A stretch of DNA of 64,000 nucleotides from Erythrobasidium yunnanense (Eukaryota; Basidiomycota; Cystobasidiomycetes; Erythrobasidiales; Erythrobasidiaceae), in assembly GCA_001600175.1 (NCBI GenBank), contig BCJC01000002.1:688318-752317 (forward strand), written 5' to 3'. Shown here piece after piece: positions 11,469 through 13,321 of this stretch (positions are counted from its first letter, which is position 1; every line of letters begins with the position of its first letter). A program made the translations under genes and the position numbers. The notes beneath the pieces are model-generated. The model was not told where the DNA came from. It worked only from the letters and a program-made list of their open reading frames with translations, and made no database searches.

Positions 11469-12091
11469 CTATACTCTTGAATTCCCATGCTCTGGATGTT
11501 TGCTAAGCCATTCCTGATCCTGTAATATCGTATTAGCCGATGCTCTGCTGAAAGGAGGCGATTCTACGCCTACCTGCTCATACGCCTTCTCCAGCTTCTG
11601 CGCTGCAGCTTCGAATTTCTCAGCACCTTCTTCAGTAGTAGCATCCTGCGCTTGGCTCGCGATGCTGTCTATAAGATCAGGTTCGTTCTTCAGAGATGTC
11701 GGCTGTCCTTGGATCGAAGAAGGTATCGCGTTCGTCATGTCGGATCGTAGACTTGCGCCAGTCTCATCTTCAGCTTGCAGAGCTTGAGTATAGTCCGCTA
11801 GGGCTGTAGGAGATGTGAAGGAAAGGATGTTGTGAGGTCATATGCGAGAAAGTCAGGCTTTTCCTGCTGGAAACGAGAACTTCGAGGTGTGCTACGAACC
11901 AGAGCTTGTCTTTGCGGCTGCACTACGCTTGCCAACTTTGCCCTCAGGGATCTCTGGATGCGAGTCTGAATCGCGTTGTTGCCGTTCTCCAGCAATGGCC
12001 TGGAACGTCTTCTTAGCTTGACAGCAGTTGCATCTACCTTGTCAGTATCTACCTTGAGCTTTGCGAGATCTTCTACCGTGTCTGTATTCAT
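11469..12091 (-). CDS. small acidic helical protein, function unknown
   Basis: Proposed exons on the minus strand: 12091-12053, 12011-11900 and 11803-11469, giving 161 residues, starting MNTDTVEDLAKLK then KTFQAIAGERQQ. Downstream come ALADYTQALQAEDETG, IDSIASQAQDATTEEG and AEKFEAAAQKLEKAYEQ, which are amphipathic helices. A further in-frame 54-base stretch in the last exon (GTAGGC to TTACAG, about 11565-11512) has good splice signals and may be removed, giving 143 residues. The first intron would be only 41 bases. No family was recognised; the ALADYTQAL helix recalls a TPR but no full repeat is present. Confidence 0.55.
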
Positions 12092-12215
12092 CTTTGAACA
12101 AAAAATTGAGTCAGACTGGATACAACCTCGAAAATGACAGCTTGACGTTCTGGTCATTGCTTCTTAATACTTTCTTGACCTACTCCCATAATCTGATATA
12201 CAACGACACACAACT

Positions 12216-13321
12216 ATGCCCTCTGACAGTGAAAGACCTAGCCGCGAACGCAGTAGAAGCAGAAGTCGAAGTCGCGAGCGAGAAGTCGCAAGATCAAGAC
12301 AAGATGACCGGGACGACGAGCCACGCAGGAGCCGACACGACGACAATGATGATAGCCGCTCAAGCAGGAAGAGGCGAGTGAGTCCTGAAGGCCGAGAGAG
12401 GGATCCTGAACGAGAGAGACCTTCGTCAGACTCGCGCAGGGACGGCGAGAGAAGCCAGCGCAGAGACAGGGATAGAGACTATAGGAGGACTGATTCTGGA
12501 AACGAACGGGAACGCAAGAGGAGCAGAAGTCCTAGCAGTCAAAACCGGTCAAGAGACAGCTATAGAGACAATAGGGATAGCAGGGATAGCCGGCGAGACT
12601 ACGATAGATCAGACAGACGAGATAGAAGAGATGACAGAGATGGAGACCGCAGGCGGACAGGTAGGTACACTCTGGCTTTACCAAATTACCAGTACTGACA
12701 CTTTCACTAGATGACCGCTCGTCTCGCAATAATGACAACCACGGTCTACCACCTTTACAGACTGAGCCTGCACCTCAAGAACAGGAAGTCGCGCAGTTCG
12801 TGCCGCCTACACGGGAATCCATCCTTGCGGATAGAGCAAGAGCGGCTGCTTCTGGAGCAGCACCAAGGAGGAGAGTCGTTCCTCTCATCGAGGTGATAGC
12901 GAACGATAGATTGGGTGGGAAAGGTAGGGTTGTACTCAGCTTGAGGATAGATCGATACTGATTTACCTGATCTCTGACAGTACGAGTCAAGTGCAGGTTA
13001 GTCGCAGTCGCTGTAAGTGTTTCATCAACTTTAACCCAATATCCTACAGTCCAAAAGACACGGTCGGCGATTTAAAGAAGCTCATCGCCGCGCAGAAGGG
13101 TACCAAGCCTGAGAAGGTAAGATGCCTAACCAACAGCCTTCAGGCCACTCTGGCTAACGTCTTGCGTATCAGATCGTGCTCAAGAAATGGTATACTATCT
13201 ACAAAGACCATGTCACGCTGGAAGATTATGGTCAGTCCGGCTATCTTCCCACTCGAGATTCAGGCTGATGGATGTTTGAATGGCAGAGATCAACGATGGA
13301 ATGAGTTTAGAGATGAATTAG
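12216..13321 (+). CDS. Arg/Ser-rich domain fused to the ubiquitin-like splicing modifier Hub1/UBL5
   Basis: Six exons (12216-12660, 12711-12923, 12981-12996, 13050-13116, 13173-13230, 13287-13321) give 277 residues. Residues 1-150 are an RS/RD/RE-rich domain ([15 protein letters not shown]). After a linker with [19 protein letters not shown], the last 70 residues are a complete Hub1 fold: [52 protein letters not shown] and [14 protein letters not shown]. Hub1/UBL5 is normally a free protein of about 73 residues that binds HIND elements of Snu66 and tunes 5' splice-site choice. Here PL stands where the initiator Met would be, and no Met occurs between residue 1 and the domain, so the fusion is not an artefact of start choice. 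The usual C-terminal Tyr-Tyr is absent; the protein ends Leu-Glu-Met-Asn. The third exon is 16 bases. Expected in the nucleus with the spliceosome. Confidence 0.88.

Follow-up and report, generated by a model that had tools for sequence, protein, structure and literature searches.

A Hub1/UBL5 domain joined to an RS arm in Erythrobasidium yunnanense

In Erythrobasidium yunnanense, a complete Hub1/UBL5 domain forms the C-terminal part of a 277-residue protein whose N-terminal arm is an RS domain, a departure from the free form of about 73 residues that is usual, if not invariant, for Hub1/UBL5. The gene lies at positions 12216-13321 of the stretch analysed here (the window; 64,000 nucleotides of contig BCJC01000002.1, assembly GCA_001600175.1). 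It consists of six exons and five short introns, which leave an unbroken frame of 277 codons followed by TAG. We infer that arm and Hub1 are translated as one protein. This protein probably docks in the ordinary Hub1 manner, at HIND and MFAP1 beside the 5' exon, with the RS arm added in cis.

One frame for an RS arm and Hub1

The features of the gene, in window coordinates, are as follows.

12216..12660, plus strand: exon 1, opening with the start ATG and covering the RS/RD/RE-rich arm for the most part, from residue 1 to residue 148 plus the first base of codon 149
12661..12710, plus strand: intron 1, 50 nt, GT-AG
12711..12923, plus strand: exon 2, with the end of the arm, the linker and the beginning of Hub1
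12794..12838, plus strand: linker motif with an FVPPT core, the core being common to P0001, P0103, P0109 and P0121
12884..13318, plus strand: Hub1/UBL5 domain, residues 207-277, in exons 2-6, without a Met of its own
12981..12996, plus strand: exon 3, a 16-nt microexon within the Hub1 domain, coding for part of VRVKC
13050..13116, plus strand: exon 4, holding Hub1 Asp22 (HIND/MFAP1 contact in human UBL5)
13173..13230, plus strand: exon 5 of the gene model
13287..13321, plus strand: exon 6 of the gene model, coding for the protein C-terminus

The gene model and the matches to solved structures agree with the initial annotation, which had described a six-exon frame joining an Arg/Ser domain to a complete Hub1. 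All five introns measure 50-57 nt, have GT-AG ends and contain CTRAY or TTAAC starting 14-23 nt before the intron end. Methionine occurs in the protein at residues 1, 272 and 276 only. Hub1 position 1 is Leu207 (CTC), with RRRVVP just upstream, which bears out the earlier reading of VVPL without Met ahead of IEVIANDR and of the gene start as the next Met upstream. With no Met between residues 1 and 272, a free Hub1 is not obtainable from this gene through an AUG start. An open stretch on the minus strand at 11798-12163, which has ATGs near 12157 and 12091, runs in the opposite direction from the Hub1 gene (start at 12216); a short divergent promoter may serve both.

The arm spans residues 1 to about 155 and is rich in Arg, Asp and Ser. 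An RS domain has at least 50 residues with more than 40% R+S and consecutive RS/SR repeats. Here the R+S content reaches 58% in the best 50-residue segment and 52% over residues 1-150, RSRSRSRSR stands near the protein start, and the first 160 residues hold 28 RS/SR, 23 RD/DR and 15 RE/ER dipeptides. SR proteins combine such a domain with an RRM, and this protein is not among them: at E<=0.01, Pfam matched the ubiquitin fold only, with no RRM.

Alternatively, the model could wrongly join two overlapping genes, one for an RS protein and one for Hub1, the latter having a transcript of its own and a start other than AUG. Retention of intron 1 gives an arm-only product of 160 aa, and when the bases of exon 1 were shuffled 1000 times, 7 shuffles had a stop-free run of at least 147 aa, so the open frame alone is modest evidence. 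Set against this, there is no AUG ahead of the Hub1 domain, and a scan for CTG, GTG, TTG, ACG, ATT, ATC and ATA from residue 151 to the domain found only GTG179 and ATC186 in frame. The fusion is also unlikely to be an accident of the gene model because four database proteins (P0001, P0103, P0109 and P0121) have the same linker motif ahead of Hub1, and one of them, P0109, holds RS arm, linker and the first Hub1 residues in a single frame. We consider a mis-joined model very improbable.

The linker motif, QFVPPT[RK]ESI, is constant across this protein and these four relatives, while their visible arms vary. P0109 (R+S up to 54% per 50 aa in the arm) is the only one of the four with an in-frame RS arm. 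The models of P0103 and P0109 include only the first Hub1 residues, as both enter an intron where the present gene has its intron 2. Where the arm would be expected, P0103 (from 'Cystobasidiomycetes sp. EMM_F5') shows a stretch low in RS. Long N-terminal stretches occur in the database models of both P0103 and P0003 (Schizopora paradoxa Hub1), and they look like RS regions read in the wrong frame. In another protein, P0002 (234 aa on a 940-base contig), arm and Hub1 follow each other without interruption; it too ends in SLEMN, the linker motif is absent, and Hub1 position 1 is Met. Five introns of the present size would hardly fit on its contig, so P0002 may derive from spliced RNA. P0109 has Met two residues ahead of Hub1, and an internal start is thus possible in both P0109 and P0002. 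The Mixia osmundae Hub1 entry (P0130) is marked partial and begins without Met, so Mixia Hub1 may also be fused.

We considered whether the linker might be a built-in HIND mimic that folds on Hub1. This idea was unsupported: the AlphaFold2 model of P0121 has no confident linker-Hub1 contact, and the linker is of low confidence in it, with pLDDT of 49-61 over the first 30 residues, compared with about 90 for Hub1.

The Hub1 domain and its docking partners

PDB chains of UBL5/Hub1 match the C-terminal part of the protein at 3.4e-31 to 2.6e-22, and the homologous beta-grasp domain is present and complete; the Pfam ubiquitin score of 25.9 bits is barely over the cut-off of 25.4. Like human UBL5 and yeast Hub1, the domain retains Asn7, Lys13 and Asp22 and has no C-terminal di-glycine. 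Unlike them, it follows an N-terminal RS arm and linker rather than forming a free protein of about 73 aa, and it has Leu for Met at position 1, Asn for His63 and the C-terminus EMN. The HIND-surface residues here are Asp22, V16, K17, C18, S19, K29, L30, A33 and Leu at position 1; besides Asp22, six of the eight HIND-contact positions are as in human UBL5, and positions 1 and 19 differ. In the human protein, Asp22 pairs with HIND R127, and Met at position 1, where Leu stands here, contributes to the interface (PMC4141198).

Two of the differences fall within family variation in a search for short Hub1 proteins (visible lengths of about 40-124 aa). The His63 surface of yeast Hub1 binds Prp5 (PMC8790634); among the best 120 of 832 matches, position 63 is H in 79 and N in 27, so His63 is not a defining Hub1/UBL5 trait. 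The initial annotation was correct that the protein ends in EMN instead of Tyr-Tyr. As a special feature this does not hold up: among the same best 120 of 832, 50 proteins have Tyr-Tyr and a single residue after LE[ML]/FE[ML] ends 63, two of them with SLEMN as here.

A separate Hub1 gene and HIND motifs on Snu66 and Prp38 had been named as points to check. A Hub1 search of the 20.9-Mb genome at E<=10 found this locus alone, with two matches that are both exons of the present gene; small exons limit the sensitivity of this search, and 20 ubiquitin-family matches of another search stand outside the single-locus count. The closest named relatives of this genome's Snu66 are from Rhodotorula, which together with the named P0103 places the organism in Pucciniomycotina, probably among the Cystobasidiomycetes. 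This Snu66 begins MAADESLSLEETNKVRISLGLAPL. Its N-terminus is a HIND over the Pfam cut-off (PF19252, E 1.4e-9), and no second match occurred in the genome at E<=10. Of 14 control genomes put through this search, three gave matches, none over the cut-off, and a DNA pattern search for HIND-like sequence found three places, one of them Snu66. At its C-terminus Prp38 carries an RS tail; no HIND was matched on this protein, either genome-wide with PF19252 or in the two Prp38 pieces scanned.

MFAP1 retains the C-terminal region on which human UBL5 docks; the column of human MFAP1 Arg358 is Tyr here, with Arg one residue before. As a separate observation, the MFAP1 frame (G000:C3:1653862-1654513; loci L014 and L015) continues before its stop into a zinc-knuckle-like CX2CX3HX4C, recognised by eye (Pfam gave nothing for it at E<=0.01), and into an RS domain. 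Given this RS domain, the counterparts of both human 5'-exon channel proteins, UBL5/Hub1 and MFAP1, may carry RS here.

The initial annotation had gone on to propose that the tether could replace HIND-based recruitment. Its reading of a Hub1 joined to an RS domain, with no AUG-started free Hub1, stands; its proposal about recruitment is unsupported in this species, where Snu66 HIND, Hub1 Asp22 and the MFAP1 dock are all present, and the parts for ordinary docking are therefore in place. With HIND and Asp22 intact, we reject replacement in this species and consider the idea improbable; the observations that speak for it come from Cryptococcus. Snu66 of C. neoformans and of C. deuterogattii (P0258 and P0259) lacks a Pfam HIND match at E<=1, Snu66 of C. 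wingfieldii and C. amylolentus falls below the HIND cut-off at 21.9 bits, and the Hub1 of C. neoformans carries a long extension rich in R. With no recognisable HIND in their Snu66, C. neoformans and C. deuterogattii are species that replacement may fit. Their Snu66 still read SLTDEEAIQLRLQLGL, by eye a possible degenerate HIND remnant. Against the idea, HIND is over the cut-off in 8 of 12 named Tremellomycete Snu66 proteins, five of which belong to species with an extended Hub1.

A possible role for the arm beside the 5' exon

In the human B complex, UBL5 adjoins the 5' exon together with MFAP1; its N7 and K13 touch the exon, and D22 touches MFAP1 R358 (PMC10943123). An earlier structure placed a Snu66 HIND contact near the 5' exon (PMC6274647), and the newer work reassigns a Snu66 helix of that model to MFAP1 (PMC10943123), which makes the HIND contact less certain in the B complex than in the crystal structure. 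By analogy with these structures, the Hub1 part of the fusion would bind HIND at the Snu66 N-terminus, its usual job, and within the spliceosomal B complex it would lie next to the 5' exon together with MFAP1. The arm would leave Hub1 close to that exon, adding an RS domain in cis whose contacts there could include RNA, SR proteins or SR kinases and which could favour weak 5' splice sites. In C. elegans, UBL-5 co-purifies with SR proteins (PMC7615767).

Several observations speak against this ordinary-docking reading, namely Asn63, the Tyr at the MFAP1 Arg358 column and the internal Met in P0109 and P0002. The human D22A mutant localises to speckles largely normally and complements splicing defects, perhaps less well (PMC4141198), so HIND binding is not strictly essential in human cells. 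Nor is an RS arm needed at this site, given that free Hub1 is common among the fungal matches listed and that named fungal Snu66 proteins are arm-less.

Instead of acting locally at the 5' exon, the arm could be an appendage that is passive or regulatory, serving as a phosphorylatable tag for nuclear localisation or for condensates. It differs between lineages and mixes RS, RD and RE dipeptides, arm-less fungi manage without it, and RS domains commonly serve as nuclear and speckle signals. The linker argues the other way, being kept in the four relatives while the visible arms vary; so does homology with human UBL5, from which the arm would be expected to begin close to the 5' exon. We regard a purely passive arm as possible but unlikely, and retain ordinary docking with an RS arm in cis as the probable arrangement.

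Fused Hub1 in other fungi and RS arms on Snu66

Related fusions are already in databases under UBL5/HUB1 names. We compared this protein with the results of a search for long Hub1 proteins (visible lengths of about 150-485 aa, 120 matches listed). Since the long and short searches apply a length rule and the short one lists 120 of 832 matches, the counts of fused and free Hub1 are not frequencies.

Tremellomycete UBL5 proteins, such as those of C. neoformans (P0016) and Kwoniella (P0006), resemble the present protein in having an R-rich N-terminal extension and a C-terminal Hub1. Their database labels are ubiquitin-like protein 5, HUB1 or hypothetical. Among the 120 matches listed, an N-terminal extension of at least 160 aa is found in 26 of 27 named Tremellomycete proteins, 25 of 27 reach 40% R+S in 50 aa, and the motifs [KR]EL[SP]FYK[KR] and GVRN, both absent from the E. 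yunnanense protein, occur in 26 and 25 of the 27. The one protein without such an extension is Naganishia friedmannii P0064, with a model that begins at Hub1. The 26 named matches are of 231-314 aa, with one of 465 aa among them, and most end SLEMY. Compared with solved proteins at E<=1, the P0016 sequence was matched in its Hub1/ubiquitin part alone, and its extension gave no match. Of the 26 extended proteins, 20 have a Met at position 1 of Hub1 or between two and five residues upstream of that position, so that in these the fusion may be less obligate than in E. yunnanense. Mrakia frigida, also a tremellomycete, has a free Hub1 in the database (P0173).

In Mucoromycota, Rhizomucor P0033 and Chlamydoabsidia P0057 likewise have an RS arm fused to a Met-less Hub1, in which R+S peaks at 76% and 58% of a 50-aa segment, respectively. 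They differ in their diverged Hub1 ending in ELYYR, which forms a separate starred branch of the tree. In this tree of 40 Hub1 domains (71 columns), five changes are needed for the 17 rows labelled fused; well-supported branches force at least two of them, and a single change suffices in 0% of 200 bootstrap trees. Among the 17, the available pieces of P0121 and P0122 contain no RS arm, Spiromyces (R+S 32% per 50 aa) and Papiliotrema (30%) are weak, and P0013 is without an R+S figure. On these counts a single origin for all fused Hub1 appears unlikely, from a tree of only 71 columns with many open forks.

Among the papers listed, mostly without subscription papers, none describes an RS-Hub1 fusion in its title or abstract opening; the lists concerned fused, RS-linked and fungal Hub1/UBL5, Hub1/Prp5/Snu66 and the Cryptococcus spliceosome. 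A word search of a UBL5/Hub1 review found none of fusion, fused, N-terminal, RS domain, D22 or H63 (PMC8431670).

Animals present an arrangement that is alike in one respect: their Snu66/SART1 also has an RS domain attached at the meeting point of Hub1 and HIND, but the arm is on Snu66 rather than on Hub1. In human Snu66, an RS domain (41-108) lies directly ahead of HIND (PMC4141198). More than 60 residues precede HIND in 27 of 29 named animal Snu66 proteins, and 25 of 29 have at least 10 R[SDE] dipeptides there. HIND was recognised by regular expression in 58 of 62 named fungal Snu66 proteins, within 20 residues of the start in 52, and at least 10 R[SDE] dipeptides before HIND were found in 0 of the 58. 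The four without a regex HIND include the truncated Somion model P0343 and P0260, which is over the Pfam HIND cut-off. These are counts of proteins rather than species, some species being repeated, and the fungal set consists of basidiomycetes, Lipomyces and Orbilia-type ascomycetes, with Mucoromycota absent.

These sequences suggest that an RS arm can sit on either partner, Snu66 or Hub1. Many fungi have the arm on neither, and for this reason its relocation is only suggested. More tentatively still, and with doubt on our part, the RS arm at the Hub1-HIND junction could be a movable part, carried by Snu66 in animals and by Hub1 in several fungal lineages with arm-less Snu66, gained at least twice, so that RS would again lie beside the 5' exon; in core Cryptococcus, HIND would have decayed. 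If the arm truly moved from Snu66 to Hub1, RS domains would be selected by their place in the machine and not by the protein that carries them.

Hub1 has been studied as a small free protein, in which recruitment and effects on splice-site choice are hard to separate. The Cryptococcus Snu66 proteins without a recognisable HIND make the dispensability of HIND directly testable, and RS-fused Hub1, alongside free-Hub1 relatives with the same HIND-bearing Snu66, provides natural experiments on the role of RS domains at the 5' exon.
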